From Antedon mediterranea (taxonomy: Eukaryota > Echinodermata > Crinoidea > Comatulida > Antedonidae), in contig NC_092673.1 in NCBI RefSeq assembly GCF_964355755.1, positions 21,333,001-21,397,000 of the forward strand: a stretch of DNA of 64,000 nucleotides, given 5' to 3'. Below, piece after piece: positions 43,101-63,806 of this stretch (positions within the stretch are counted from its first letter, which is position 1; each line of letters opens with the position of its first letter). The translations under genes and the position numbers were made by a program. A model generated the notes under the pieces. The model saw nothing but the letters and a program-made list of their open reading frames with translations, was not told where the DNA came from and searched no databases.

Positions 43101-43922
43101 CCCTAGTCCAGATTGGTTTGTAGGCGTAGATGGCATCAGCCTCCACGACGGTCTAAAATGGGTAAAAGCCGCGTCTTTCGAACTATATCCAATAGACGCA
43201 GGCACCGACAAGGGCCTGACTTTCACATCTCCAAATTTTGCCGAATCTCCTGCTAAGTCTATCTCCCGGATTTACTGGAATCGACCTTCACATCCGGCGG
43301 CGTCATTCCAGTACCCTGGCGGAGGACTACCATCGCTAGGTCGGCTTACGTTTACCCAAATTTCAACTAACGAATTTCAAAGACTAACAACGGGTCAGAA
43401 ATATATACTCAATTCAATTGTCAAGACGGACAAGTGGAATGATTTATCGAAGGAAAACTCAAAAATAGATTTAACCAAACTTGCTGGTATTCTAGGGGAG
43501 AAAAAGCTGACAGTACTCGCTGACCAACCGCAGGGTAAGTGCAGTTCCTGTATACATTTATATCTCCGAAACTAAATCGGCAAGTGGCCTTAATCTGTCT
43601 TTTTTGTGTGTTTTTAACAATTTACACAATATTTTCAGATCTTCCAACGGATTGTAGAGTATCGTCGTGGGGCGACTGGAAATGTGACAGACAACGATGT
43701 GGTGTCGGAATTCTTAAGCGGTATAGATATATACGCGTAGCTCCAAAATATGGCGGGAAAATTTGCCCAGTATTAGTTGAGATGAAACCATATAGTCTGC
43801 ATGGACTCAACAGCAAACGCCGTAATTGCATAAAAAGGAAACTTGAAAAAGAAACTCGAAAATTTACTAAGCAGCAACGAAAACGAGTAGGTTACAAATT
43901 CAAGTCGGTGAAGAATATTTGA
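40112..43922 (+). CDS. spon2-like: Spondin-2 / mindin-like secreted matrix protein, four exons
   Basis: Exons: 40112-40289, 42663-42874, 43078-43534 and 43639-43922; total 1131 nt, 376 residues, all junctions in frame with GT-AG borders. Residues 1-22 are a signal peptide (MHFIRKSLLLFLVASVLS). A spondin domain follows: YRVTFIANWSQGRFPKHYP, then HMWHLGQYATKG, then IIPSPDWFVGVD (about 137-148), DAGTDKGLTFTSPNF and PSHPAASFQYP, all diagnostic of the family. One thrombospondin type-1 repeat is in the last exon (CRVSSWGDWKCDRQRCGVG; the tryptophans could be C-mannosylated). The C-terminus is strongly basic (KRKLEKETRKFTKQQRKR), suggesting heparin or matrix binding. Vertebrate spondin-2 has the same signal, spondin, single-TSP1 order and similar length. 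It is an extracellular protein that in vertebrates binds integrins and microbial surfaces; that role here is inferred. Intron 1 is 2.4 kb. The gene is convergent with the receptor ending at 44856. Confidence 0.92.
41140..41320. repeat. GC-rich tandem repeat in spondin intron 1
   Basis: ACGCGTTTCAGTGGGTT with TTCATTCATTGAGTAGCTGA recurs four to five times with unit lengths near 20-66 bp (nested periods). Confidence 0.8.
41659..41735. repeat. 20-bp tandem repeat, four copies
   Basis: TTGATGCGCGTATTAAAG repeats with small changes (GCGCGCATT, GACGCGAGCACT). It lies in spondin intron 1. Confidence 0.85.
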
Positions 43923-44855: not shown

Positions 44856-45473
44856 TTAGTTTATTTTAGAGCGTCTTAATTTGTCTACAAGATTGTTAAG
44901 TTGTTCAAAATCTTGTTCAGGTGAGACGCCCTCTGTAGTATTGGTAGTTGATGTTGAGGCAACAATAAGAAAAGCCCGCTTGTTTGCCTATTAAATAAAA
45001 GAAAACAAATAATAACAAAAAATAAATAATCTCTTCATATTAATGATGAATACAATGTTTTATATTATATAAAAGAGCAGCAAGTTTAAGTACTAGTATC
45101 TATGATTTCTATAGTCTAAGGAGACACATTTCTAAAGCCTATAGGCCTAGTAGTTTTATTAGAGTAAATGGCAATAAACGTTGATACGCTACCTTGTCTG
45201 TTTGAATGATCACGTGTTCTTCTGAGATTGTACCATGAGTGAACTTGCTACGATGAAGGAACTGCAAAGCCTTCGTTAAATCAGTTTCAATCTGAGTAAT
45301 TTCTTCATTTGTAAAAAGTGGTCCTGTAGTAAGGTTTTCGGTAACCTTCTTTGTGTGAGTAGCTAATATTGAAGATAAGAGGTACGGGCGAGAGGTTGCT
45401 AAGCTGAGCAAAGGTAGAACACGGTTTCTTTCAAGATCTTGCTTAACTTTGTCAAGTAATGTTACTTCGGTTT
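44856..45473 (-). CDS. Kinase-like cytoplasmic tail of the receptor (two last exons)
   Basis: Exon 45473-45193 joins the 7TM exon as CAA A|AA ACC and exon 44987-44856 joins it in phase 0 (ACA GAC AAG|GCA AAC), ending LRRSKIN and TAA. About 137 residues follow the 7TM part. The pattern resembles the middle of a protein kinase: a helix with [16 protein letters not shown] (like helix C), then LLPLL-type strands as [19 protein letters not shown], then [18 protein letters not shown] (like helix E) and [11 protein letters not shown] at the catalytic loop. HRD is HGT, the loop Asn is His, and the DFG site reads VAS. A glycine loop and VAIK lysine are not seen and the C-lobe is very short. If kinase-derived it is a dead, trimmed pseudokinase. 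The exons are well supported; the kinase relationship is an inference. Confidence 0.65.
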
Positions 45474-48400
45474 CTAAAATAAGTCAAAAATTAATATGTA
45501 AAAACGTTACAATCTGGTCTAAGGTTTAAGCACAACTATACTAACTAAAAAGTATAGTAAATTCACTCAAAATATGGATAATTTTAGAAACAAAAAAAAT
45601 CAATAAACATACTGCAGTGTCCTACTATCCCAATTCTACAATATCAACTTGTTACCTAAAGCGTGGTTCCCGCTAGTGACGCAACGCAAGGACGTAAGTG
45701 CAACGCAACCAAATTGACCAATGGCAATTGTGACAGTTGGGATAATCCATCGCTTGTGATTGATCAAGTTACTTACGTTGCGTCCTCGTGCTTCCCACTA
45801 GCGACACAATGGAGTGTTGCGTAATCACAAAAAGTGAGAACCACGCATACGATTACTTAAGATTTTACTCACTTTGTGTTTCACTCATCATAATAGACGC
45901 ACATGTTCCTTTTTTCGCTAATTTCTTCCGCTTCCTTGCATCCTTGATATAGGGAATTGTGTAAAGATACGGGTTCAGGGATGAGTTTATTGGCATGATC
46001 AATGTCGCCGACCATACATAAATTTCTACAGGAATCTGCCAAGCTCCAGCCTGAGAAACAATTCCCATCAAAATAATTGGGAACCAGCAGCAGAAATCAG
46101 TAAAAACGATTATTGCCATTTTCGTTGCCATTTTAAACTCTTTAGTTTTCGACTGACTTTTATTTACAGAGGCTCCAGCTTGTTTAACAACAACATAGAT
46201 GTATGTATAACTGACAGCGATAATAACAAACCCTAAGAGATTGAATCCTAGAAAAATAGCGACTGAATATTCCCAACCATCGAGACGATCTCCTGTAAGT
46301 GGCAATGCAAGACATACGCTAGGTCGCCCATAATAGCTTTCTCCAAAATACGGTATGTTAAACATTGGTAGAAAACTGATAACGATCATAGTCAACCAAG
46401 CTATTGCGAGCATAATAAGACACTTTTTACGATTTAGTCGAGCGGTGCTAAATGGAAATCCGACAGATACCGCACGATCCACACTCATAACAACTAATAT
46501 AAACACTGAAAATTCACTAGATAAAGTCGATATAGCTCCGGCAAAATTGCACAAAAAACTCGATTTCCAATCTTCTGCAACTCGAGCGTAACGCCCTCTA
46601 TAATATAAATCTGCCCCAGCGATAATTATCATGTAAAGACCCATTAAGAAATCCGAAGTGGCAAGATTTGTGATAAGTATTGACTGAACATTGCGATAGT
46701 CCTTCGAATACAAGCGCCATACAATGACGATGACATTGCCTAATAGCGCGCTCACTCCAAGAATCCACATCAGTACTCGTAAGAATTCATTTTTCATAAG
46801 ATCCTCACAAGAGGAGAATTGATCCGCAGGGGGGTGACAATGTTCAATGTCACCAACAATGTCATTTATCATACAACAGAAAAGGAAATCATCTGTTGAC
46901 CTAAAAGAAACAATACATTTGTGAAATGCGTTATCTAAAAAAAAAAATTTCTGTAGCTCTTGTTTGAGCTCTGTTGGTGCAGTACCCTCTGCCTACTTGG
47001 GATCGAATCTAACCCCTAGCCATCAGCGCAAGCTCAGTGGTCTAGACGTATTAACGCCAGCTTATGATCTTGAGGTCGTGCTTGGAGTTCCACACCCGAG
47101 AATTATTCTCAATGTACTTGAATTTTCAGTTTTAAAAAGGTTATAATTAAAATGGATCAAAACTTACAATGATTTTAGTTCATATAAACCATCAAATACA
47201 TCTTCTTGGAATTCAGTTAACATGTTTTCTTGTAAATATCTGTAAAACCGTAAATAATTCAAAACCATATTTATATTTTTGTAAACGGTAGGCCTAAGTG
47301 TTAGATAAAAATCTTTTACAAATGTACTCAAATATAAAGTTGAATGAAATGAAAGCTATTATGCGTCATAGAATGATCTCATAATTTAAACTACTCCACA
47401 ACTCACTACGCCTCAAATTAGTCTTAATTGGTAAGTAAAGTTGTTTATACGATTTTAATTCACATTACTTACAGGTTTTGCAGTACACTTAAAACTGAAA
47501 ACACTCCAGAATCTACTGATATTAAACCGTTATAGTCTATGTACCTAAAATTATAGAAATAAGTCATTTAAAACAAAGTAAATAAACCGGTTATTGCTCA
47601 TGTTGTGATGAGATATGATGCATGTGCGGAAAGTAACTATTTAGTAAAAAAAAACATGTTTATTAGAATCATTGAAGCACAGTAAAAACGTTGGTCAATC
47701 AGAACCATCGTTTTTTTAAAACATTGATCTCAATTGAACTCAAAACTGTGTTACTAATGTTCGAGATAAAATTCACTTACAGAAATTGAAGATTGCTCAA
47801 ACCATTAAATGCCCCTTTTTCCAAATGTTTTATCTCGTTATTTGACAGTACCCTATAAATAATAAAATTGTTTCACATGTAAATATGCATTTTATTAAAA
47901 GTTAAGTTATTTAGAAAGTGGTTATTATTACTCACAATATCTGCAAATTTACTTGCTGACCAAATGTGTTTGGTAAAATCTCTTCTATTCCATTACTTGA
48001 AAAATCACTAAAACAAACAAAAAAGTTTAAATGCGTAATAAACAACTTCTTTAAATTTGTGTAAAGACGAATTGTCCAAAAAAGATTGAATAAAAATAAG
48101 AACGCTACGAAACCAAATACCAAATATGTATATATATTATACATTATTTGTAAATTAAATTCCACTTTTTTGTAGAGGTAATACCTAAAAATAGTGTGTG
48201 CATCAATACACAAAACGCTAACATCATTCGCACATTCATTGATCAACATATCTTTGATTTACTCATATGAATATATTATCAAAATGAAATGGTGTACATT
48301 ATGAACTTACGCTTTTATAAGTAAAGAAAATTGATCAATGTCAAGAAGTAAAGAATCTTTAAGAGTGACACCTCTAGTTGACCTTCTGTTCACAGAGTTT

Positions 48401-51400
48401 CTACTAAGATTTGTTAGGTTTCTGTAGAAAAAAAAAACATTTTAATTAACCTTTGACCCGTGTTGTAAATGTGTAACGTTTTACTGACCATGAAAGCTAT
48501 GTCTATTCTGTCATGTATTGCTTGCCAAATTGACAACAGCCAATAGTTTCCATTTCCCGCCTAAGTTCTGTTTTGCTGGGACTTCAGTGCCCCATCAACT
48601 TTGAGATTACCCGTTTCAACGTGAATAAGAACTCATAAGAACTTATAAGACCTCCTTTTATAGAAGTTAATTCAAATAACACAGAAAACGTTAAATAAAA
48701 ACTAAACTTACAAATATCTTGCTGATGAGAGAATGATTGATGCTAAGGTTTCATTCCATGCAATCCCATGACATGCGACCTCAAGCCCTCTGCAAGAACA
48801 TTCAGGTGCGGGGCAACCATCGTCTAAAAAAAGAGTAAATATTTGTCACCATTACCATCAACAATTACATTTATTTTCATTCCCTTTTTACTCCTTATAA
48901 ACCGATTTTGAAAACATGAAAGTACATGCTCATGACTCAACATCAAACACAAAAATTGCTAATTACTTACCACAAAATAATTCGTCATCTCCTTCTGGAC
49001 AATTCTTAACTCCATTACACCTGTCGTTATGTGCTATGCAAATTATACTGTTTCTACATTTATACGAATTTGGACAGACGTATGAATCTGTGAAAAAAAA
49101 ATCGAGAAGAGAATGTATTTTTTTACAGGTCTATTCAATGCAGTGAGCCTGCAGATACATATTGCCTTATTTGTATTGAACATTTTTAATGAGGGTAATC
49201 CAAAACCACTTACCCTGACAATCAGGGGACTCTCACAAACACACCAAACATAAAACACAAACATAAAACAAAAACATCACAAAACATATTCTCGTCAGGA
49301 TTAAGTATTTCGACATTACTAGTTATCAGAAATGATGACTAAACCAACGATGACGAAACATGGACAAAATAGAGAAAAATGTAAGAAAACAATTACCACA
49401 CTCTCTTTCGTCTTCTCCATTTGGACAATCCCATACTGCATTGCAACGTAATCTCTCTGCAATACAGTACGACGATGGACATTTAAAGGTGTCTTCCAGG
49501 CAATTATAATCATCTGAAATAAAATATTGATAAAATATACTAAAAAGGAATATTATAATTAGAATTGTCCAATCTATGTTCATTTAGCTTTAGTAAACTT
49601 GGTCAGGCCTAGATGATCGTAGTAGGCCGGGGCCTTTGGCATTGAGACGTTTAAAACTTACCACATTGTTCAAGGTGCGACATATCCCGGCATCCTTTCT
49701 GAATATGGTATTCATCTAAGTCATAAAGGCATCTGAACCGTTTTGGTGAACATTCCTTGTTCTTGCACACCATTGTATCGGCTGGACATGTTGCGTTTAT
49801 CCAATAATCTATGGAAAGAAAGATGTTGGTTTGTAGACATTTTGAAAGAATCTATATTATACATTTCAATTAAAAAAAATATTCTAATTGTATGTTACTA
49901 TAAATAATATAAATTGCTACGATAATATAAAATATAAAGATAAGTAGAGAAGGAAATAATTGAATGTTGAGTACATACCGCAATTTATTTCGTCCTCTAC
50001 TGTGTCACCAGGACAGTCGTTGGTGGCGTCACATACGGCTCGTAATGGTAAACAGGATCCATCATAGCACTGAAATCCAGAGGAACAGAAATCTAAAAGA
50101 GATGTGTGCATCGATTGTGTCGTAAGCACGAACAAAAACACGTCATTACATTACATAACGTATATTGTTTTAAATACACATTCTACCCCATATGCAATCC
50201 GGTTCGTCACCTATGTGTGTGACTGCGATCAACTCAATTCAGATTTATTTAGCTCAGTGGCGGTTCCTCCTTAGCTTGATTTCGCGAGGAACTTTATTGA
50301 ACAATGCATGATGGAAAGGGTTTGGGAGGAAACGTCACGACGCGTACGTACAAACAACAAATCACGTACGTACGCGTCGTGCCCCCAAAAAAAACGTATA
50401 TACAAACAAACATTTACAAATAAATAAAAATGATCAACTAATACAATTCAATGTTAATTTCGTTTTTAATTGTCATTTGATGTAGGGCCATTCTCACCAC
50501 AATCCTTTTCATCGGATCCGTCTGTACACTGTATTAATAAATCACAGTGTTGATTAGAATCTATACATTGACCATTATCACATGTAAACTCCTCTGATGT
50601 GCAGTTTGGATAATCTTGAAAAAACAAAACGTTAAAATGTTGTAAGTCAATTATCAATGGGAGTCTCATTAAGTCAAAATATTAAGACAATTTAAAATAT
50701 TACATTAGCAACACATTGTTAGATCAATATTTACTCTATTTACTAATAAATGTTTTCAAAACATTTCTGTTAATTACTACTATTTTCTGAAGTTAAATAT
50801 AATTCTTATAATAATAGTTCTTATATAAGACGTCCAATTAGGAACCAGGCTTCTAAGATCATACACAAATTTAAATCTTTTGACAGTAGAGAGATGACTC
50901 AATCACTTTTTTTCATTTCTTTTAGTAAACTATTATTTAATTTGTTGTAATGCAGTATACGTACAACATTCGATTTCATCAGACATATCAATGCATTGTG
51001 GGATGAAGTCGCAAACAAATGATACAGGTATGCATTGTTTGTCTTTACACTGGAAGTCCCCATATTCACATTCGCCTGGAAAAGAAGTCACAATACAATA
51101 GTGATAGTGTGGTTCCTACTAGGACGCAATGCGACAACGTACGCGCAATTTGACCAATCACAAGTAAAATTCGGATAGTCCTTTGCTTCCAATCGGCGTT
51201 GTGTTGCGTCCTATAGGAATCAATTGGCTTCAAGAGTAAAAAAAAAGAAAAGAATAGGTTCTATCAGCAATCATAGAGATATAACTATAATATCTCTATG
51301 CAGAAATTGAAACTGCAATGTTCTATCAGTAATTGAAACTGCAATTTTATATTTTCCTGCAACATTGTATTTGTAAATACCAGGTTTCTCTCAATTAGCA

Positions 51401-54400
51401 TACATTTGTATTCATCTATTTGTTACTAGATATTATTGGCCTAGATAAACATACAGTAATGTGAGTTGATGTTATTAAGTTACCAACCCATTCCATAAAA
51501 GCAATGACAAATTTAATGTACCGTAATAATTGCATAAAGATTTCTACTAATGTTATTATATTACTTTCACAATTGAATTCGTCGCTTCCATCTCGACAGT
51601 CTGTTTTTCCATCGCAAACGAATAGTTGATGAATGCATTCTTGGTTATTACATTGATAGTCTTCCCTGTAACACCCTTTACAAAATCGAAAATACAATTG
51701 AAATTTAGTTTTTAGAAACAGTTTTCTCCTTTTATTTTGTCTCCCCTCTAACACTCTTTGCCATTAAAAAAAACTCATTAGTGTTTAGTTTTAAACACTA
51801 ATTTTGGTTGAATTTGATTTGATTTTGTAATGTAGAATATGAAGTAAAGAGTAGCTACAGAAGAAAAACAAATAAATAAATTATAAAACAGTTGACAGAC
51901 GTTTGTTTTTATTAATCTCCTAATGCATTCCAAATCTTTGTTTGAAATGATCAATTTGATTTTGTAAATCAAAAATAAATTCCTGGAACGTCTTGATAAA
52001 TCTTAGTTTAATTTGTGTTATCAGCGAATAGTTACATTAGTTTAATTGCATATGACCTCCAAAAGTTAAAGATCGATAATTAATCTTTTACTTGAGTCAA
52101 CAGCAATTGTTGTAAGTTCAAATATAGTACACGGCAAATATCTTTTATGAATAATATTTCATGCCAACTTCTATATTAGATATTGGAAATCGTTTCCTTT
52201 AAATCAAAATAAACAAATATCTCTTTTAAAATGTATTATAGTTTAATTGCTGTAAATGACCTCCAGAAGATCAATAATTAATCTTCTACTTGATTCAACA
52301 GCAATTGTTCAAATAACAATAAGTTCAAATATAGTCCCCGGCAAATATTTTATATGAATAATATTTCATGCCAACTTCTATATTGGATATTGGAAATCGC
52401 TCCCTTTAAATCAAAATAAACATATATTTCTTTTTAAATGTATTTACATCTTTCGAGAAACAAATGATTTAGTCATAAAATCTTGTAGAAACAAAAATTT
52501 GAAATATTTTACATCAAATTTAGAAATTCTTACCTTTGAACGACTTCTCAACCTGCTCCACTGTTGTCGTTACATTAAGATACATATCTGTCAAAAGGTA
52601 GTAGATTTCAGTTTCTTTCATTCATGGCTATATTTGCTGTTAATGTGTACTACTAACATTCGCATATAATTTCTATTCAAACTTACACTTATAACTATTG
52701 TCTTATTAGTAAGAGATAATTAAGATACTTCGTTATTGTCATGACCCCAAAAATAGACTCATAATATGCATGTATGTGTCTGAAACTGCAGAAATCACAT
52801 GGCCTACATAATTATATAAATGCATAAACTGAATTATCTTTGAAAATGAAGAGTCTGGTACATTTTGATGCATGTTTCAGATTTTTTTTTTACATAAATT
52901 TTAAAAGAGAAAATCTTCTGATTTGACAACTGCAAATTCATCAGTTTAATAATAAATTTCCATTATTTTTTTAATGTAACTAAGACTCTATATAAATCAT
53001 CAATGACATCTATTCCTATTAAGCTCTGCCAATGTGATGTGCTATCTGGACATGATGATGTCATATCACTTCCATATTTGGGCGTATCAGTACCACTGTA
53101 TTTTGGCACATCACACCTTTTTGTCAAATTAGTTTGACAGTCTAGACAGAGTTTTTTGATCTTGAGATAAAATGAATAATGAACGAATGAAATGAATACC
53201 TAGTTGATATTTGCAGATGTACTGCGATGTTGTAGGAAACTCGCAAGCTACCTCATTCCATTGTTCAAGAGAATGGAAGTTGTCCAATCTTATTAGAGTA
53301 CACTGCTCCAAATCACCAGCTTTTGGTTGGTTCTTAGCTACATTTTCTTTTCTAAATGATGTTTAAAAAATGTAGTTGAATTTAAACTTTTTAAATCAAA
53401 GGAAAAATGCCACAACTAGTCTTTAGAATTTATATTATTTATAGTTTCATTGTGATGAAAGTTAACAGTAGGCCAGTATCTTATTCTTCTTGTTAAACTA
53501 GATTAGAGTATGAAAAGAATGATCCCTTTTCAAAAGTTAGTGTACCGCAAACTTATCTTTACTAGTAATAATAAATGAAGTTATTACCCGTCTTGCATAT
53601 ACCAGGCTGTGTAGCTCATTGGACTTCCATTGCTCCACGATAACAAACCATTGGAACTTAACCTGTCAGACAATCCTGAAAAATAACCTCACCAGTATAA
53701 AAAGAAATGTCACTTGCCAACACAAATACAACATGTCCATATAATGTTTTCTAATATAAACGCTGCGCAGTCGCAAACACAAAATCGGGATCGCTCTCCA
53801 ATTTATCGCAAGCAAATCATAGTTAACCTTCACTAAAGAGCCCAGAAGCATTTCTATATGAAATCACACAACGCATTACGTACATATCTATAATGTATAG
53901 AAATATACAGCTTACCTATATAAACCTCTGTGTGCTCAGAATTCCAGAAATGAGTCAACATGTAGTGAATGAATTCCATTTCTAGTTCTGTTGATACGAA
54001 CACAAGATGTGCATTCATTTGCTCACATTCCCACTTTGCATCTGTCCAGGTAATGTACTGCATATTCGAAAAGTTTCTATAGCAAGCGTTGCCATAGAAT
54101 ATCCACTCGGGACTACATTTATCTATAATGATAATAATGATAAAGAGTATCAAATGTATATTAAGTTACAATTGGAATAATTCATGTATTTCAAAACAAT
54201 TTGTTATGAAAAATAATAATAATTGTTTATGTGAATTTGAATGAAATACACGCCGTATTGTAAAACAGTTTAAATAGTTGGGAGGAAAATGCATAGTTAC
54301 TTGAATTGAAATCGGCTCCATCGCTCACGATCGATTCCGACGTATAGCTGGCCTGGAATCCATGGCCACTCACAGTGCTATCCGAGTAAAAGACCAAACT

Positions 54401-57400
54401 CATTTTGGTTCGACTACTGATCACATACTCGGGTGGTCTATTGTAATTACAGAATTCTCCGATTATGTCATCACTCTCTACTTCTCCATCGTAGACGATT
54501 ATTGTGTCAGATTGACACAACGCATCACTTGGTATATCAAAGTCCAGAAAAGTGAGTCGAATAAAACTAGAGCTTGATGGACTTTCGATGTACCAGGTGC
54601 AACGACTGCCGGGTGAATAGTCAAATGGATAATTGAACGTAGAAAATGTGGCATCAGCAAGATTGCATTCGACGTTTGATTCGTAAGTTATAACATGACA
54701 ACCGGGTGTTTCTGTAAAATATAAATTTGAAGCAATGCCTTATATTATATGAACTCCAATTTTATGATTGATTTTATAAATAATTTATCATAAAACTTTC
54801 TAGAAAATTCCAAATTGGAATTGTGCAACATGTTTCAGCTTCTGTGTAGTTGTTAAAATAACAGCCCTTAAACGAAATCTTAGTACTTACTTACTTTCGT
54901 TTTTATTTTACAATGCATTAACTTGATTACAGATTAATTTAAAGAATTAAATAAAAGATGCAAAGCCTAGACCAAAAGACCAAATAAGCTCAAGAGAGCT
55001 TTAAACCTGGTTTCACCAGAACAAAATAATTACTAATAATAATTGTATCAAATAATAACAATACATAGATTTAAGTAAATAAGGTCAGACAAGTAGTAGT
55101 AATAATATAAAAATATAAACATATAAGAAAAAACAGTGTTTAGTACAGTAAATAGTTTAGGAGCGATTGGGAAAATTGCGTTTGCTTTATTGAGAACCAA
55201 TCGTAAACGTGTTTCTTTAGAGGGAACCGGTCATAGAGGATCTGTGCTTACCGCAGTTTCTTTCGTCTCGTTCATCTGAACAATCGTAATTACCATCACA
55301 ATGACGGGATATTTGCACAACAGTAGCATCACCACATGTTACTAAATCATTACAAGAATAAATTAAATAAAATTAAAGTAATAATTATATATTTCCTGAA
55401 AAAAATAATAATGTTATTCACTGCGAAATGGGTCTTAATCAATGGTATTAAACGCAATTGTACTTAAAATACCATAAAAATATTCTTAAATAAAGATTTT
55501 TTGTAATGCAAATAATAAAATGGCAATCTAATAATATGGCAATATATTTTGTATATGAACCATAAAAGTTGTAATAATTAATAAGCAGTAAATTCAGCTT
55601 TACCAAGTGCTCGATAAAATGAGCGGTATCACGTCTACCTACCAAAACAACCTGCAGTATTGCGTCTTCTGACAGTAATCTTCATCCCATGTGATAGTTT
55701 AGTAGAGTAAGATATTATTTAGAGGGTTAGGTTAAGTTAATATTTAGGAGTTATGTGCTATCGTATGGGCCTGTTGCCGTCATCAGACACGATACTGTGG
55801 GATGTATATTGACACTAGACATGGTATCATACGAGGATCGACTGTATCTTAAAAATAGACTGAAGTATGTCAACATAAAGACAAGCTTTAAGTTAGACTT
55901 TTCTCGATAAAAATAACACAAAATAATGTTACCACAGTTGCCCTCATCTTGCCCATCTTTACAGTCCAAAATATGATCACATACTTGTGCTGAAGGCAGA
56001 CATCGGCCATCATCCGTGCACTGATATTCGTTCTCTCCACAAGCTATATTGAACCATATATTGGTTGTAATGTATACATTTTAAACTCTAATAGCACAAC
56101 GTAAGAACTAAAATAAGGAAACTACAAGTTACGGCTTCCAGTTAAAGATGTATTGTCCCCCAAAAAATCAGACTTTGAATAGTCAATTTTGCAGATTTAA
56201 TCAAGTTAATCACTTGTAAAAAGATCAAATAAACGGTTAAACTTAACCAAAAAATTATTGATTTGATAATTTGACTATTTTTTGCTTTTAATTTTAGTTT
56301 TTTAAGGTATATATATATATTTTTTTTTTTTTCGATCCCCATTTTTTTGGTAAAAGTGAATAACTATTATGTAGGCCTAACAATAAAATTGCATATTCAA
56401 CAAAAACATGTAAAACAATTATTTTTTCAGAGGGACAATACATCTTTAATGTATACATGTAAAATTAGTATTATCTATAAGCATAACGTTTGAACGACAA
56501 GGTCAATATAGAAAACAAAAATGAACGGCTGCCGATGGATAATTTGCTTTGCTAATTCTTACGGAAAGTTAAAGACAAGTTGGCAAAAACTATACCTGGA
56601 TTGGAAACATAAGCATCCTCCCACACGCTCTCACTAACTCCCTTATCTACCTACTTAACTTTAAATCAGTGTAAAGTCTATAAGCACTCACTGGCTAAAC
56701 CCAGTGGCCTCGTTTACGCCACTGCTTGAAATACTGACTTACCACAACTTGCAATTTCATCAGAATAGTCTGGACAGTTACCAAAGCCGTCACACACAAA
56801 TCGTGCTGCAACACAGTAACTTCCACCAGATTCGACACACAGTGTATCGTTAACACTGGAACATTCTACGATGTGATACATTAAGAATTAGTCTGGGTTC
56901 CAAACGGAGATTTGACTTAATATTAGTAAAAAGATAAATATTTTGGCATATATGGCGTTTCATACGTATACTACTTAAAACTTTTAAACATCGAAACGTT
57001 GATAATTAAATTAAATAATCGCGTGAAATTTAGTGCGCGTTATCATATAACTTTTTTTTAATGATTTTATCTTTTGCCGTTCAGATTTTTCGTAAGCCGG
57101 TTGGTGCCGGTTTTGTTTTTAAATTGTCATTGTGTTATTTATTGGAGTAGAAGGCTCTTCTACAGTTACCCGTATTAAAGTTTTAAATATTTATAAATGT
57201 TATCATTATTACTATTATTACACTCGCAGTATCATGAGGAAAAAATTACCATAACAGTGGCGGCTCCATGATTTATATTAAACTATAGCAAATAAAATTC
57301 ATAATTACCACATGAATATTCATCACTTGCGTCACCACAATTGTCATACATATTGCATCGGTACGTCATTGGAATACAGCGACCATTATTGCATTTGAAC

Positions 57401-58875
57401 ATCGACTCGTCACACACTATCAAAATCAAATACAACAATCGATCGATGCTATTTAATTTCCATTCAAACGTAAATAAAAGAAATTATAGGTTCAATCATG
57501 ATTTTACGCGGGTAGTAATTTAAAACTGAAATATTGGAAATGGCAAGATAATGTTGCAAATTTTATTCTTGGCGAAATAGAATTTTAATTTTTCTTTTTC
57601 CTTCATAGATAGCCTATTGCAAAGAGACACCGTCAATGCGCGCGTAGGTCGATGCTTGTTGCGCTTCAATCGCCATCTTGGTTGCTCAAATCTTTAATTT
57701 ATTTAATATAAGTTCCACAGTTCCCCTGTTATTACAGGCATCCATGATAACAGAATAACTTTAATTTAATTTATAACCAAGAAACCAACAACAAATACTT
57801 ACTACATGATGGCCATTCGAAATTTGGAATAGAACAGTCGGTAGCAGGGATATCACATGGTCCAGGGGAGTAACTACAGTCTACAGTCGTTTCAGGACTT
57901 GATATTAAATCTAAGAACAATGACAAAACATTCCTGAATAAATGATACGCGTACAGAAAACATGTTTTTATTTATGTATAAATGGTAAATGTATTATCTT
58001 TGACATGAGAACGAATTTAATATCGAGTGGTTAAGGTACAGTACGCAATACAGGTGTAATGAATTACCATTCCTAACACAGTATCATAGTGTCTACATGA
58101 TGCATTCTAGAATAAGATGTTTTGATTTAAGAAACCATGTATAATTAATAAGAACAATCAGGAACATTCCAGAAACGCTATTAATAGAAACTGTAATCCA
58201 ATAGAATTAAGAAGTATAAAGAACGATCTAGAAGGATAGGAATATCTTGTATATAAAACTTAAAAGGATGTAAAACTATTGTAAGGTTGTTGGATATTAT
58301 AGATTGTAAAGGTTATTGTGAAGCTGTTGTTTAAAGTGCTTACTGGATTGTTGAAAGTTGATTGAAATTAATGCTTTGTTTTGGAGTTATTTTACAACTT
58401 TGTGGATTTTGTGTGTATACTTTTATGTCACAAGGGAGTTCCTAAAGTATTTTCAACCGCTCGGAAACATACGTAAGAGGAGTTCGTGACAACAGGAACG
58501 ACGTAAGCGCTACTCAAGTAATTGCCCAATTATCATCAGATCATCAGAACTGTCGCCTTTGATTGGTCAACCCACTTGAGTTGCGCCTATCGTTGTTGCG
58601 TTGCGCTTTAATTTACTGTACAATATATCAATATAACACTTACTAATTCCAAAAACTTCCACTTCACATAACGTAAGATATTCGTTTCTACCAACAACAC
58701 ACACAGACACATAACGTCCATACATGAGTTCGTTGCACTCTACCCGGATGTTTGTACTAAGTAAAATACTTTCAGCCGACACAGTTGAACCACATCTTGG
58801 ATTCACCGAATGAGGAGTTGGGTTCATGCCGATATGAACGACAGCATTAGTCAGGCGCTCGGCTAAAATTGAACG

Positions 58876-58913
<38 letters not shown>

Positions 58914-61900
58914 AAATATAACTAAATAAACGTACTAAATAAACAATTATGACATCGATACATTAATAGAAGTAGTATGGGTCCAAATCACCTAACTAAA
59001 GGACGACGAAAAATACTGAAGCAGCACTTTTGCGATACGGTGCAGTTAGTAGGAGGCCTAGTTATATGGAAGAAAGACTAACAAAAAGGCTATTTTGTGA
59101 CGATTTAAAGGAAAATAGATCACTCGAACATCGTAATAATATTCATTTAGAAAGTAAAAACTCGCGTGTAGTCATGAATTTAGGCCGTGTTTCGCCGATA
59201 ATTAACCGATAAAAATTAACCGTTAAACTGCCTACGGAAACGGGGTTTAACCGATTCCCACCGATTAATAACCGATAATTATCTCATTCAAATCAAATAA
59301 TAATAATCGGATAAAATGCGATAATTGTTAACCTTTGACCTGAAGGACAGATCTGATTGGGTCTCTGGTTGTTTGATAATGCCTAAATCATGCGCACTTT
59401 AATTAACCGATAAACTGCCTGTGGAAACATGGTTAAACTGATTTCCACTAGAGAAAAATTAACCGATAATTATCTCATTCAGATAATTATCGGATAAAAT
59501 GCGATAATTTGTAACATTTGACCTGAAGAACAAATTGTTGCGATGTGATGGGCTCCCTGTTATTTTTTTATAATGACTGATTATGCGCACTCTATTGGTT
59601 GAAAAATTAACCGATAATTTATTTCTTGGCTGCGGAAACACGCCCTCTGATGATCAGAATGTCTTAATCAGAGAAAACATCAATACAAATTGATTTGTTA
59701 TTACAATTAGAATTGTTAATCTCAAATTACAATGCGTGTTGGATCTCAATTTCAATAATGCTTGTAAAATACTTACTTTCTAACGATCTAGATATGATAC
59801 TAATTAGTAATAAATAATACCTGCACTTTCTCGATTAACAATATCGACAAATTGCACTGCATATGCCTTTTCCAAATCAACAGTCCACCAAGGCTCAAAA
59901 TCGTTATCTGTTTAATTATCAAAGAATAGCAAATCTCAAAAGACATTCTTTGGTAGTTTATTTAGGTCTACGTTTCTCGCTGCTGCTTTAGCCAGCTACA
60001 TCTCCAGAGGATTACTCATTCAGAAGCTATATCAAGCAGCAAGTTATAGTTTTAGAGGCTGACGTTTTTGATAATTTGTGAACTAGGACAGGTTATGCTC
60101 AAATTACAAACCCCAAAGCCCGTCTGGGAGAAGAGAGTATACAGTATTACTGTATATAGATGCATGTAGACGGTAATCTGTAAAATCTTGTTCAATAAAT
60201 AATGACTTTATTCTTGTTGTCAACCTAGGCCAGTATTTATAATAATTCACTGTCAAATAATCAAAACATTATTTTGGCTGTTTAGGCTGGTATTTACAAT
60301 GAGTCCCATTTGACTGTCAATCTAGACCGATATTATAATACTGTAATTCGCTGTCAGATAATCATTGAATTATTATTTGTTTAATTCGGGGTAGGCATTT
60401 ATTCTAATACAAACTAGCTATCAAGTTTGGTTGCCTCTTGCACATAGGCGCAACGCAAGTGCCAGCTGACCAATCCAAAGCGAAAGTTCGGACGATCGTG
60501 GTTTGTTCAACATACGTCCTTGTGTTGTGCCCTAGTGTGAACTAAGCTTAAAACAAGATAGCAATTACGTACGTGTGTGCGTACACGAACCAGAGTTGAA
60601 GAATGGATTTGGATCGCCGTCTACAGCCAGGTCTGAGCCTCTAGGATCCCCTGCCACTACAAGTACACTGCTCTGTTTCGTAGGCTTACCACGAGATACC
60701 AACTCTTATTGATAAATTGAAAATAAGAAACGCGGTATATAGGTAATATATGAAATGCAAGTATTGTGACATACTATAACCTTTAAATTATTACTATATA
60801 CTATAATATAACAAGTTGGATGTACGAAGTTAATTTACTTACATATATAAATAAAAAAATTGTAATGCGCAATGTGAGTAACCAATGGCCAATAAAATAA
60901 AAATACAATTTGAAAAAAAAGGCAATATGGCTCTCTGAAGATGCGATTTAATGGTTATATGATATGCATTAAAATACACAATACAGTACCTTTAATTAAT
61001 GTAACGTGCGCTTATTAAACCCAAGGCGTAGATTTAAACATTTTTAAACAGGGTAAGTAATAATCATGGAGTATTAATTAATGGTATAATTATACAAAAC
61101 TAACTTACCCACTGCTCTCCATATAAGATGGAATCCTTTTCCGGATAAATTTGAATCAGACACGAACATTAACAACATAGAATTGGCTTCCGATAGCAAT
61201 GTGTAATAATTACTGCCGCATAGTCTATATGGATTTAAAAAACGAAATTAATTCATAATCAAACTATTTTAAATTAGGTGTATTAGATATATTAATGGTT
61301 CCTTATTTAATTTGTTTATTCAAGCATTAGCTACTGCTATAGAATTAATAACTGAGAGATAAAATGGTGGTACGGATATATTACACAGAATTGTTGATAT
61401 ATTTGAGGTTAATGATTTTGGGCCTATTTTTTCTATATAAAATGTAGGTAAATATTTGCATTTGGCGTCATCGTTTTCATACAGTCTCCTGTACCATTTA
61501 AGTTGGAAAGATATTAGTAAGTCTGTTAATAAACAATGATGTAATTCATATGCAAACTTATTCAGCAACCCCACCTCTCCAAGAGGCCAATTATGTTGGA
61601 GTTATTGGTCCTAATAATTTGCACCAGCCTATTTCAAATCAAGTCAGCAGAATTAAGTACAATAATTGTTATGGAAATAAAATAAAATAAATACAATACA
61701 ATTAATAGTACAATCAACAGATTCATTCAAGGATAACCTTCATTAAATAACATTATTTATTAGTTTACATGATTTTAATTACAAAATTATAAATAGACCA
61801 GGAGATGTAAGTATATTATAAATAAACCGTCTATTGCCACGTGCTGCGATTCATTTTATGATACCATCATTTTTATTGTAATTAATCGTACCAAAAACAA

Positions 61901-63806
61901 TAATGACATTGATACAATATGTTAAGTTCAAGGTATTATAAATCTTCACCAATCATAAATGATGAGCACTCAAATTACACATTTAAACTTGATCAAAAAG
62001 GTCAATCGACTCCTTTCTACGTCGACATAATAAACTGCAAGAACCACTTCTTATTTATCAGCATCGACATGTTACGTAACTATTATGATTAAACTGACGA
62101 ATTTATATTAGGATTTGTCTAAGTAACAGGCCTTAACTGTTTCTGAAAATAGAAATATAGTATATTCATGGATGTATAAGATCCATTCTAAGTTGTTATT
62201 ATTGACCACCGTGTACCCGTATGTAATGACATGGTTCTTGTCCGAATGCCCAATCGCCTATAAGCTTACGGTAGCTTCTTACTGTAATTACTGCCATTAA
62301 TATGTAACTTTATTCACAATAGACTACAGTACTTGACTACAACCAATGTTTTTACTTACTAATTAAACGTGTAATTCTTTCTCCTAAAACGGTCAATTAA
62401 CTTTTAAGCGACCCAACTACTGCCGTTCTTTTTCGTGGTCGAGTAGATTATTCAAATTTAAACAAATGTGCTTCATTGCAGGAATTACGCATGCATTTGA
62501 TCCAGTCGTCAAAACACGATTGTTCGAAACGCGTTTTCATACTATTTATTTTATAGTTTACTTAAATTGCGTTTCATTCATGTTAATTACAATTGTATGG
62601 TATATAATATGTCGAATTTTAGTTTTTGCAGTAAAAATTTAGTGGGTCTAAACGCATTCATAAAGATTGAAATGAATTTGTGTGTAATTCTCCGATATTC
62701 TTAATTTGTTATAATAATTGATTTAAAACATATTTATACAGTATAACATAATTCAGAAATATTGATCAATCATCGAAATGTATTTCTTTTTTTTACTGTT
62801 ATGCAATATGTGCAATTGATTGTTTTGAAAAAAATATAATTTAACGTCGTCAACATCATCAACGTCTTCAACGTCTTTAACGTCATCAACGTCGTCAACT
62901 TCATCAACATCGTCAACGTCTTCGGCATCTTCAACGCCTTTAACGTCATCAACGTCTTCAACATCGTCAACGTCATCAACGTATTCAACGTCATCAACGT
63001 ATTCAACGTCATCAACGTCATCAACATCATCTCCACGTCATCGACGACATCAACGTCTTCAACGTCATCAACGTCTTCAACATTGTCAACGTCTTCGGCG
63101 TCTTCAACGTCTTCAACGTCTTTAACGTCATCAACATCGTCAACGTCTTCAACGTCTTCAACGCCTTTGACGTCATCAACATCGTCTCCACGTCATCGAC
63201 GACATCAACGTCTTCAACATTGTCAACGTCTTCGGCGTCTTCAACGTCTTTAACGTCATCAACGTCTTCAACGTCATCAACGTCTTCAACATCGTCAACG
63301 TCTTCAACGTCATCAACGTCTTCAACATTGTCAACGTCTTCAACGTCTTCAACGTCATCAACGTCTTCACCGTCAACAATTATAATTATTATCTTTCTCT
63401 TGACGTATGGAATAGTTAAGCGTGGTTCCCACTAGCGACGCAACACAAGGACGTAACGCAACGCAAGTGAATTGACCAATCACAAGCGATGGCTTATTCG
63501 CTTGTCATTGCTAACTGTCTATAACTTCGCTTGTCATTGGTTAAAACGCTTGCGTTGCGTTTACGTCCTTGCGTTACGTTCTAGTGGGAACCAAGCTTTA
63601 CTGGTCAGTTTACTTGAGTTTGTTGCTTTTGAGTATTATATTCGTTGATTTAATTGATTAATTTGAAACGGTTCTAGAAAAAGCAGGCTTACTTACCGGT
63701 CATGCACTTCGTCACCTGTGCCATCTAAATAAATTTCAAGATAATCATGCGGACAATAAAAATCAAAGGAACGAAATTTAACCGAAACACGACTTTCTTC
63801 TGGAAC
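44856..63806 (-). CDS. Giant composite LDLa/LRR GPCR (GRL101/relaxin-receptor group) with lectin ectodomain and kinase-like tail; 5' part outside window
   Basis: I traced 31 exons: 63806-63697, 61224-61109, 60704-60573, 59907-59821, 58862-58644, 57910-57803, 57416-57309, 56865-56743, 56043-55933, 55341-55252, 54711-54301, 54122-53916, 53675-53588, 53351-53200, 52587-52534, 51675-51565, 51075-50965, 50614-50498, 50092-49979, 49808-49662, 49513-49397, 49087-48971, 48823-48712, 48421-48311, 48007-47936, 47852-47781, 47544-47473, 47239-47168, 46900-45873, 45473-45193 and 44987-44856 (stop TAA). Every junction has AG/GT borders and keeps frame; the sum is 4902 nt, 1633 residues. Order: CUB, FTP, linker, 4 LDLa, CUB, C-type lectin, linker, 7 LDLa, LRR cap, LRRs, hinge, 7TM, kinase-like tail. 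The LDLa/LRR/hinge/7TM core is that of GRL101-type (type C) LGRs. Signal peptide and start of the first CUB lie beyond 64000. Expected at the plasma membrane as a G-protein-coupled sensor; ligand unknown. The domain entries below give details. Confidence 0.88.
45657..45849. mobile_element. MITE family A copy in the intron between 7TM and tail exons
   Basis: TAAAGCGTGGTTCCCGCTAG at the left, GTGAGAACCACGC at the right, with GACCAATGGCAATTGTG and GATTGATCAAGTTACTT between. It fills about half of the 399-nt intron 45474-45872. Confidence 0.8.
45873..46900 (-). CDS. Hinge and 7TM exon of the receptor
   Basis: The exon begins [13 protein letters not shown] and continues to [16 protein letters not shown] then LRVLMWILG, the hallmark hinge of relaxin-receptor/GRL101-type LGRs. 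Seven hydrophobic segments follow: [10 protein letters not shown] (TM1), [12 protein letters not shown] (TM2), [12 protein letters not shown] at the TM3 end, [15 protein letters not shown] (TM4), [16 protein letters not shown] (TM5), [19 protein letters not shown] (TM6) and [11 protein letters not shown] (TM7). The DRY motif is DRA, and NPxxY is NPYLY. The exon ends ATGATGAGTGAAACACAAA|GTGAGT. If this intron is retained, a stop follows two codons later, giving a receptor without the kinase-like tail. Confidence 0.93.
46985..47105 (+). repeat. Probable tRNA-derived SINE fragment in an intron
   Basis: AAGCTCAGTGGTCTAGACG resembles a pol III A-box and CTTGAGGTCGTGCTTGGAGT the degenerate B-box region. 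A second B-box-like GGGATCGAATCTAAC is at about 47000. Confidence 0.35.
47168..48823 (-). CDS. LRR cap and leucine-rich repeats of the receptor (six exons)
   Basis: 48823-48712 encodes an N-terminal Cys cap ([19 protein letters not shown]). 48421-48311 is an irregular first repeat ([17 protein letters not shown] and on). Then four exons of exactly 72 nt (48007-47936, 47852-47781, 47544-47473, 47239-47168) each encode one 24-residue LRR, for example [20 protein letters not shown] and [20 protein letters not shown]. All LRR exon borders are phase 2. This is the canonical one-repeat-per-exon LGR arrangement and positions the ligand-binding arc directly before the hinge. Confidence 0.92.
48971..51675 (-). 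CDS. Second LDLa cluster of the receptor, seven modules
   Basis: Seven exons, each one LDL-receptor class A module bordered by phase-1 introns: 51675-51565 ([19 protein letters not shown]), 51075-50965, 50614-50498 ([18 protein letters not shown]), 50092-49979 ([14 protein letters not shown]), 49808-49662, 49513-49397 and 49087-48971. Most keep six cysteines and an acidic DxSDE or related Ca-binding end ([23 protein letters not shown]). 49808-49662 is longer (48 residues) and lacks the acidic end, so it may not bind calcium; 51075-50965 has DMSDEIEC. Confidence 0.93.
51108..51225. mobile_element. MITE family A copy, intronic
   Basis: GTGGTTCCTACTAGGACGCA at the left, GCGTCCTATAGGAATCAA at the right, ACCAATCACAAGTAAAAT between. 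It is in the intron between two LDLa exons. Confidence 0.7.
51272..51300. repeat. Short hairpin, CATAGAGATA family
   Basis: Arms CATAGAGATAT and ATATCTCTATG with a 7-nt loop. It looks like a shortened relative of the hairpin at 7647. Confidence 0.75.
52036..52441. repeat. Tandem duplication of about 200 bp, intronic
   Basis: Phrases such as CAACAGCAATTGTT, GTTCAAATATAGT, CATGCCAACTTCTATATT and GATATTGGAAATCG occur in the same order at 52036-52234 and 52239-52441. Confidence 0.9.
52534..52587 (-). CDS. 54-nt linker exon of the receptor
   Basis: ACAG|AT ATG TAT through TTC AAA G|GTAAGA gives [17 protein letters not shown] between the C-type lectin and the second LDLa cluster. Both borders are phase 1, so it can be skipped without frame loss. 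NVT and TTT make it a possible glycosylated spacer. Confidence 0.7.
53028..53155. mobile_element. MITE family B copy, intronic
   Basis: Contains GATGATGTCATATCACTTCC, ATATTTGGGC, TTTTGGCACATCACA and GACAGTCTAGACAGAG, matching the copies at 3925 and 63849. Confidence 0.7.
53200..54122 (-). CDS. C-type lectin domain of the receptor (three exons)
   Basis: Exons 54122-53916, 53675-53588 and 53351-53200. The fold is recognised by [15 protein letters not shown], then [17 protein letters not shown] (WxxAxxxC), [21 protein letters not shown], and WNEVACEF with the final YICKY. The usual EPN or QPD sugar-selecting tripeptide is not clear; the nearest is QPK in [11 protein letters not shown], with Lys in place of Asp, so calcium-dependent sugar binding is doubtful. 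Domain length (about 145 residues) is normal. Confidence 0.88.
54301..54711 (-). CDS. Second CUB domain of the receptor (single exon)
   Basis: One 411-nt exon with phase-1 borders encodes [24 protein letters not shown]-type [55 protein letters not shown] and QASYTSE. The four CUB cysteines and the acidic DTIIVYDG Ca-site strand are present. Confidence 0.93.
55252..57416 (-). CDS. First LDLa cluster of the receptor, four modules
   Basis: 57416-57309 ([20 protein letters not shown]), 56865-56743, 56043-55933 ([18 protein letters not shown]) and 55341-55252. All borders are phase 1. The last module is only 30 residues, [20 protein letters not shown] then SDERDERNC; it lacks the first part with one Cys pair, so it is a trimmed or degenerate LDLa. 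Confidence 0.9.
56143..56449. mobile_element. MITE family C, complete copy, intronic
   Basis: TTAAAGATGTATTGTCCCCC at the left and GAGGGACAATACATCTTTAA at the right enclose about 270 bp of family sequence. It lies in the intron between two LDLa exons. Confidence 0.85.
57803..57910 (-). CDS. Cys-rich linker exon of the receptor
   Basis: 36 codons with phase-1 borders give [20 protein letters not shown] and [15 protein letters not shown]. Four cysteines; I recognise no domain. It separates the FTP domain from the first LDLa cluster. Confidence 0.75.
58495..58611. mobile_element. MITE family A, diverged copy, intronic
   Basis: GGAACGACGTAAGCGC at the left and TTGATTGGTCAACCC, GTTGCGTTGCGCTTTA at the right are family phrases; the left terminus is poor. 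Confidence 0.5.
58644..60704 (-). CDS. FTP / fucolectin-type (F5/8C-like) domain of the receptor (three exons)
   Basis: Exons 60704-60573, 59907-59821 and 58862-58644 encode [90 protein letters not shown] and [10 protein letters not shown]. These are the conserved blocks of the eel-fucolectin/tachylectin-4 family, where the fold binds fucose with a calcium ion. The set of blocks is complete. Binding residues cannot be confirmed without an alignment. Confidence 0.9.
58879..58911. repeat. (AT)n microsatellite
   Basis: About 16 AT units just upstream of the last FTP exon (58862), next to its acceptor. Confidence 0.9.
60428..60552. mobile_element. MITE family A, diverged copy, intronic
   Basis: GGTTGCCTCTTGCACATAGG at the left, GTGTGAACTAAGCTTAA at the right, GACCAATCCAAAGCG between. 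Confidence 0.6.
61109..63806 (-). CDS. First CUB domain of the receptor, C-terminal part (two exons)
   Basis: 63806-63697 encodes [18 protein letters not shown] and [13 protein letters not shown]; 61224-61109 continues through [18 protein letters not shown] to [19 protein letters not shown]. The CG|A split codon (Arg) joins them. The first half of the CUB and the signal peptide are beyond the right edge. The 2.5-kb intron between holds a LINE fragment, a satellite and a MITE. Confidence 0.88.
61320..61600 (-). pseudogene. Fragment of an L1/Tx1-like LINE ORF2, intronic
   Basis: Minus strand: [34 protein letters not shown] and [11 protein letters not shown] follow the 'LK-W-RLL, W-L-FYL-K-G, PPFY--IL' pattern found between the RT and C-terminus of L1-like elements. 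Only about 90 codons survive. Confidence 0.5.
62842..63378. repeat. 9-bp satellite TCAACGTCW with higher-order structure, intronic
   Basis: TCAACGTCT and TCAACGTCA alternate for about 530 bp. A divergent phrase, ATCTCCACGTCATCGACGA, marks the array near 63028 and near 63184, so a unit of about 156 bp was duplicated. Ser/Thr-rich (plus) and Met/Leu/Thr-rich (minus) open frames across it are artefacts. Confidence 0.9.
63416..63600. mobile_element. MITE family A, best-preserved copy, intronic
   Basis: Left AAGCGTGGTTCCCACTAGCG, right TTCTAGTGGGAACCAAGCTT, with CGCAACACAAGGACGTAACG and the mirrored CTTGCGTTGCGTTTACGTCC inside. It nearly abuts the satellite. Confidence 0.85.

Follow-up and report, generated by a model that had tools for sequence, protein, structure and literature searches.

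A single-gene model for an LGR-type receptor with a predicted CUB and lectin head in the crinoid Antedon mediterranea

Introduction

Animal lectins are best known as soluble proteins or as single-pass receptors acting through other signalling routes. The locus described here raises the question of whether one gene can join such recognition modules to a seven-transmembrane (7TM) domain: on the minus strand of the window (the whole 64,000-nucleotide stretch analysed, C4:21333001-21397000, where C1-C11 denote contigs of one genome), two CUB domains, an F-type lectin (FTP, or fucolectin) domain and a C-type-lectin-like domain (CTLD) precede the LDLa, leucine-rich repeat (LRR) and 7TM parts of an LGR-type receptor. 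If the lectin head is indeed fixed on an LGR, glycan recognition would be coupled directly to G-protein signalling, and the orphan-ligand question of GRL101-like receptors would become testable. In snails, according to the available text of PMC12297450, CTLD-bearing GRL101-like receptors are already suspected of a part in parasite resistance.

Results

The first-pass annotation had assembled 31 exons between 63806 and 44856 (minus strand) into a single reading frame of 4902 nt, all borders being GT-AG, and an independent rebuild agrees, giving 1633 residues and a stop in an unbroken reading frame. The window end falls inside the first CUB domain (CUB1). Extended into the flanking DNA, where coordinates past 64000 continue the window numbering, the full model comprises 33 exons and an ORF of 5058 nt from Met to stop (1685 residues; coding region 65586 to 44856, minus strand), with GT-AG borders at 32 of 32 junctions and not a single N in window or flank. 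The annotation had taken the N-terminus to be missing and had allowed for extra modules there; a signal peptide and the first third of CUB1 complete it, and no extra module was found. Scanning 69900-64214 for exons with a Met, hydrophobic residues and a phase-1 donor yielded only the exon-1 ORF, in three variants, and no further module is expected from the sequence beyond signal peptide and CUB1.

The upstream neighbour, at about 70171-69926 on the minus strand, is an exon of a LIM-domain-binding (LDB) protein, whose LIM interaction domain (50.7 bits) places this LDB-like gene at about 70171-70085. Downstream, plus-strand positions 42964-43919 match Spondin_N (94 bits), in frames convergent with the receptor gene, and the same region scores 38.6 bits for a spondin-type TSP1, just below the cut-off of 41. 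Two further minus-strand open frames lie at 16375-14999 (459 residues; strong 7tm_1 match of 238 bits, aminergic-looking by eye) and 28435-27662 (258 residues; by eye a LINE reverse-transcriptase fragment).

The modules can be read off the minus-strand exons in the order signal peptide, CUB1, FTP, four LDLa, CUB2, CTLD, seven LDLa, LRR, 7TM and tail. Exon 1 (65586-65535), which ends in a phase-1 donor, encodes the signal peptide MYVLRVFSIFVIFIAVEG, and exon 2 (64214-64111) starts CUB1, as an in-frame Pfam CUB match; both lie beyond the window end. The rest of CUB1 occupies exons 3-4 (63806-63697 and 61224-61109), and the FTP domain, matched by Pfam and PDB sequences, spans exons 5-7 (60704-60573, 59907-59821 and 58862-58644). 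Exon 8 (57910-57803) is a linker with a cysteine and has counterparts in C1 and C5; exons 9-12 (57416-55252) encode LDLa 1-4, and exon 13 (54711-54301) CUB2, each by Pfam. The CTLD (exons 14-16, 54122-53200; Pfam Lectin_C and PDB) is followed by the weakest exon of the model, the 54-nt linker exon 17 (52587-52534), whose C1 counterpart is equal in length and phase and poorly conserved. Exons 18-24 (51675-48971) encode LDLa 5-11 (Pfam), exons 25-30 (48823-47168) the LRR N-cap and leucine-rich repeats, the final four of these exons measuring 72 nt each, and exon 31 (46900-45873) the hinge and 7TM domain (Pfam; RXFP1 in PDB). Exons 32-33 (45473-44856) carry the cytosolic tail, which resembles a truncated kinase lobe, and the stop codon. 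Within the introns, a long degenerate minus-strand repeat built of units resembling GTTGAAGACGTTGATGAC was noted by eye in CUB1 (63400-62840), and recurring palindrome-like elements, MITE-like by eye, lie at 51210-51120, 45830-45660, 63600-63400 and 60550-60450.

Profile and structure-sequence searches bear out the domain list of the first-pass annotation. In the 1685-residue product Pfam matched CUB (159.5 bits, two stretches), Ldl_recept_a (209 bits, 10 matched stretches), 7tm_1 (109 bits), LRR_8 (61 bits) and the FTP-like family F5_F8_type_C_2 (53.6 bits). Lectin_C is absent from the whole-protein scan, but the CTLD by itself reaches 51.7 bits for this family against a cut-off of 22.6; the CTLDs of the C1 and C5 paralogs score 49.5 and 50.9 bits. 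Among PDB sequences, lymphocyte antigen 75 and mannose-receptor-type domains rank first for the CTLD, and the FTP domain matches FBP32 (3cqo, 9.1e-48) and eel fucolectin (1k12, 2.3e-17). The LRR and 7TM parts together match RXFP1 best (7tmw, 1.1e-71), then TSHR, LGR4 and LHCGR. The gene is an LGR by its LRR_8 and 7tm_1 matches in a single ORF, with an FCC hinge read by eye, and a type-C LGR by the seven LDLa-type exons that adjoin the LRRs, of which LDL9 is atypical by eye.

To evaluate the join between head and receptor independently of the model, the 1685-residue product was aligned to the loci on C1, C5, C7 and C11 with a protein-to-genome aligner blind to the introns of the window. Because several small exons look false (C7 N-terminal, C5 linker, C11 last exon), the lengths and identities given for these alignments are approximations. 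C1 (20.2 Mb) carries identical modules in the same order and strand, with 63% identity over 1658 aligned residues; C5 (14.47 Mb) aligns from the FTP domain on, with 48% identity over 1491 residues and order and strand as in the window; C7 and C11 both show 39% identity, over 1339 and 1214 residues. The alignment scores of 5417, 3424, 2177 and 1978 (C1, C5, C7 and C11) compare with 67, 85, 112 and 54 on the opposite strand, and because sense scores lie so far above opposite-strand scores at four loci, the layout is beyond chance. The head alone (residues 1-757) scores 2114, 1194, 459 and 345 against 61, 68, 96 and 48 antisense. Introns fall at the position (within 2 residues) and in the phase of those in the window for 31/34 in C1, 26/28 in C5, 17/25 in C7 and 17/19 in C11. 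In the FTP region of C1 the tiny aligner exons were taken as false, and the raw DNA suggests, by eye, a GC-AG intron.

Single-domain searches agree: the top matches for CUB2 and CTLD beyond the window, like the top FTP match, fall in order on one strand in C1 and C5. In C1 these are FTP at 20204413 and 20204739, CUB2 at 20215516 and CTLD at 20216367-20217688, followed by 7TM at 20224590 and tail at 20226166; in C5, FTP at 14491929 (weak) and 14491289, CUB2 at 14480183, CTLD at 14479673-14478982 and 7TM at 14467118. C7 matches CUB2 at 14110560, the first CTLD exon at 14110008, 7TM at 14076344 and tail at 14074836. No CUB1 of C5 was found over 18 kb, and it may lie farther off or be lost; the scan for a C1 signal peptide settled none. 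In 10 of 11 segments compared between the window and C1, nonsynonymous change is lower than synonymous change (pN 0.12-0.37, pS 0.68-0.81), the ratios being rough because synonymous sites are near saturation. LDLa 1-4, CUB2 and CTLD show pN of 0.20-0.22 against 0.23 for the LRR part, FTP (0.29) and CUB1 (0.37) change faster, and linker exon 17 (18 codons; pN 0.50, pS 0.52) shows no clear constraint. The equal layout of the paralogs supports the chimeric LGR-type gene (CUB, FTP, LDLa, CUB, CTLD, LDLa, LRR, 7TM) that the annotation had proposed. Because sister genes in the genome share this layout, the gene very probably encodes a real receptor.

That conclusion has to be weighed against the improbable reading that two adjacent genes were wrongly joined, namely a secreted CUB-FTP-LDLa-CUB-CTLD lectin and a downstream LDLa-LRR-7TM receptor. 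Such a boundary would fall where linker exon 17 is just 54 nt long and poorly conserved and where 53200-51675 contains seven AATAAA/ATTAAA hexamers, but AT-rich introns yield polyA-like hexamers by chance (a qualitative argument), and phases agree across the joint. Signal-peptide-like starts with a phase-1 donor occur in the CTLD-LRR interval of the window at 50413 and 49287, in C1 at 20218183 (in frame through the linker exon), in C7 at one place and in C11 at three; they differ in place between loci, however, and C5 has none. C11 has an intron of just 224 nt separating its CTLD from the linker/LDLa exon, which leaves little space to fit a 3′ end plus a promoter, and the module order is conserved in five further loci, with 39-63% identity in the four that were modelled. 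Read-through of the CTLD donor would add 23 residues before a stop, so a shorter soluble isoform is possible. A separate origin of the lectin domains was rejected on the conserved order, the matching phases at the joint and the short C11 intron, and we prefer the one-gene reading, because the paralogous loci (C1, C5, C7, C11 and a second C5 locus, C5b) keep the module join; a single transcript would then span head and 7TM.

It is more improbable still, by a wide measure, that the locus is a pseudogene or an assembly join. The family has many copies, and nine of the 68 best 7TM matches contain stops (hand count), but the 1685 residues of the window gene run without stop or frame break, neither window nor flank contains an N, its evolution is constrained, and the equal layout recurs on other contigs. 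A pseudogene was rejected on the intact frame, the constraint against C1 and the repetition of the layout elsewhere.

The two lectin-type domains differ in how well their sugar-binding sites are kept. The fucose-binding pattern of F-type lectins is an H...R...R triad, and in the window FTP domain CTH is followed after 26 residues by an R and then by a second R in NRESAAER, which aligns to NRDSFEKR of FBP32 domain 2 with the binding loop ungapped. The H-X26-R spacing and the second R are kept in all three copies read by eye (window, C1 and C5, that of C1 from raw DNA). Of the eel motif, the window FTP domain lacks the D and the CC pair, and so does FBP32 domain 2. The domain is an F-type lectin by its sequence and its H...R...R pattern, and sugar binding is its predicted activity. 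Sugar-binding C-type lectins carry EPN or QPD with a WND calcium site; the corresponding residues, read by eye, are QPK/WNE in the window, EPK/WKE in C1, QPL/WFE in C5, QPE/WLA in C11 and QPD/WHD in C7. The CTLD of the window gene belongs to the Lectin_C family and lacks the canonical EPN/QPD plus WND site, and it has probably lost canonical calcium-dependent sugar binding. Because the FTP pattern is kept and the CTLD motif is degenerate, sugar binding would likelier proceed through FTP than through the CTLD, and glycan sensing by the receptor is plausible.

Besides the window, the analysis covered five loci of the lectin type (C1, C5, C7, C11 and C5b), and six others were sampled upstream of the 7TM domain (C3, C8, C9, C7b, C10 and C4b). 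By the aligner, C7 and C11 are without residues 128-453 of the window protein, that is FTP, linker and LDLa 1-4, and their layout is CUB, CUB, CTLD, LDLa, LRR, 7TM. Pfam CUB scores 44.6 bits for the first CUB of C7 and 62.6 and 49.9 bits for both of C11; the second CUB of C7 was detected by the aligner and a local profile. C5b (C5:28.44 Mb) reads CUB, CUB, CTLD, LDLa, LRR by local profile; single-sequence searches miss such divergent copies, C5b being absent from the CUB2 and CTLD searches, and its first CTLD exon, scanned by itself, gives no Pfam match at 0.001, with 19.9 bits against a cut-off of 21.4 for its second CUB. At the single C3 locus sampled, LDLa and LRR are present, and the 6.6 kb separating it from the preceding copy gave no confident match to CUB or CTLD. 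C8, C9, C7b, C10 and C4b have LRR exons only before the 7TM domain. Reading upstream as far as the preceding copy (C8, C7b) or across 18 kb (C4b, C10) gave no confident CUB, CTLD or LDLa match; the highest LDLa score, 10.4 bits (E 0.004), came from C4b. For C9 the upstream read covered 5.3 kb, about one tandem spacing.

In all, at least 68 loci on C1-C11, many in tandem (hand count), match the 7TM domain at E <= 3.5e-89 with 46-100% identity, a lower bound since 119 of 335 candidates were scored; internal stops occur in nine of these matches. In a midpoint-rooted tree of 31 rows chosen from the 7TM matches of this genome, 20 rows fall into a single clade (100/100), the five LRR-only samples all among them; this clade groups with the window and C1 (99/95) and then with C5 (100/99). 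The window and C1 pair with support of 92/85, the place of C7 is left unsettled, and the root falls between the rest and the distant loci C10:16091504 and C7:9844316 (32-35% identity). Read most simply, the tree and layouts suggest that the lectin head predates the LRR-only group, which would have lost it. As part of this reading, FTP and LDLa 1-4 would have been inserted between two CUB domains before the split of C5, C1 and the window; this extra block (residues 128-453) is flanked by phase-1 introns. The series from CUB-CUB-CTLD-LDLa, through insertion of FTP and LDLa, to loss of the head in LRR-only copies lets exon shuffling be traced step by step.

The 137-residue tail (45473-44856 in the window) matches in sequence in three loci at E 0.001 (window, C1:20226161-20226679 and C7:14075157-14074555) and weakly, by the aligner, in C5 (14466777-14465502). 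A profile of the four tails matched 343 distinct PDB sequences at E up to 1, the best 60 of which carry protein-kinase names, led by VRK3 (2.1e-5), and the kinase alignments cover the helix and catalytic-loop region; titin, with two rows among the matches, is presumably matched by its kinase domain. Single tails score below the Pfam cut-off (Pkinase 18.4 against 31.7 bits for the C1 tail), and the predicted structure of tail exon 32 alone has low confidence (mean pLDDT 58.6). A complete protein kinase was rejected: 137 residues hold no N-lobe and no DFG, with HGT where HRD is expected. At most, the tail would be a kinase-like remnant. Fusions of GPCRs with tyrosine kinases are described, in the available text of PMC12716839, from choanoflagellates and sponges and not from other metazoans; the literature consulted, mostly on other questions, showed no kinase-like tail on a bilaterian-type LGR.

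Discussion

On balance we favour, with some reserve, a single gene for a type-C (relaxin-receptor/GRL101-like) LRR GPCR whose CUB-FTP-LDLa-CUB-CTLD segment serves as a capture head. Presumably displayed at the cell surface, the head would bind a multivalent surface ligand; the likeliest is a fucosylated glycan or glycoprotein held by FTP, with CUB and CTLD adding protein contacts. Binding would reposition the LDLa-LRR-hinge segment, and the hinge would drive the 7TM bundle into its active state and so elicit G-protein signalling; in RXFP1 the LDLa/LRR module drives 7TM activation. The receptor may in this manner couple recognition of surface molecules to G-protein signalling. We infer a role in immune or environmental recognition rather than that of a classical hormone receptor, and recognition of pathogens or glycans by the head is suggested by its predicted domains.

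The strongest rival, which we consider unlikely, is a peptide-hormone LGR in which an insulin/relaxin-like peptide binds the LRRs and the CUB/FTP/CTLD head merely anchors the receptor in matrix or modulates its affinity. The related relaxin receptors bind peptides, so a peptide may still be what the 7TM domain of the window gene responds to; among solved structures RXFP1 matches LRR and 7TM best, the CTLD sugar site is degenerate in the window gene, and Veenstra, in the available text of PMC8286064, proposes GRL101 as an IGF receptor. However, in the comparison with C1, LDLa 1-4, CUB2 and CTLD show constraint equal to that of the LRR part (FTP and CUB1 changing faster), the FTP pattern is intact in the three copies read, and retention of the lectin head in several copies would be left without explanation. 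A broader proposal extends the recognition receptor to a lectin-headed pattern-recognition LGR clade, relaying glycan binding to G proteins with the degenerate kinase-like tail as a scaffold, one branch of which lost the lectin/LDLa head and grew to perhaps fifty LRR-only receptors (a figure taken from the 7TM match list, with five sampled and twenty tree rows); we offer it tentatively, as doubtful in its entirety.

Across LRR, hinge and 7TM the best solved match to the window gene is RXFP1, a type-C1 LGR, which has one LDLa repeat and, to our knowledge, no CUB, FTP or CTLD. The F-type lectins FBP32 and eel agglutinin share the FTP sequence match and the binding pattern; we know of none fused to a GPCR. 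The Lymnaea GRL101 and type-C2 LGRs share multiple LDLa, an LRR block and an LGR-type 7TM, and lectin or CUB modules go unmentioned in the available text of PMC8286064, PMC11863921 and PMC4079206. One GRL101 ortholog is reported for each ambulacrarian species studied (available text of PMC8286064), in contrast to the at least 68 close 7TM matches here. A GRL101 with six LDLa motifs is described, in the text consulted, from the sensory tentacles of crown-of-thorns (PMC6267866), in whose main text the word "lectin" is absent.

GRL101, to which the first-pass annotation had compared the gene, gives way as the nearest precedent to receptors with CTLD, LDLa, LRR and 7TM published from Biomphalaria. 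In Biomphalaria sudanica ten CTLD-LDL-LRR-7TM receptors lie in a region associated with schistosome resistance, and pathogen sensing is suggested (PMC12297450, available text). Like the window gene, these SudRes2 receptors combine CTLD, LDLa, LRR and 7TM in each gene, a likeness of domain content alone, and like this family they are locally multi-copy, with a proposed role in recognition; no CUB or FTP is described for the mollusc receptors in that portion of PMC12297450. A CUB or FTP domain on an LGR-type receptor was not found in the open-access literature among the matches listed, including sources available in part. CTLD-LDLa-LRR-7TM receptors are thus already known, and the addition of CUB and FTP to such a receptor, which did not appear in literature searches, is apparently new. 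A parallel exists in amphioxus, where, in the available text of PMC2246102, Lectin-C, CUB, LDLa and discoidin domains were likewise shuffled onto GPCR ectodomains, those module-bearing receptors belonging to the Adhesion family, whereas the window gene belongs to the LGR/rhodopsin family.
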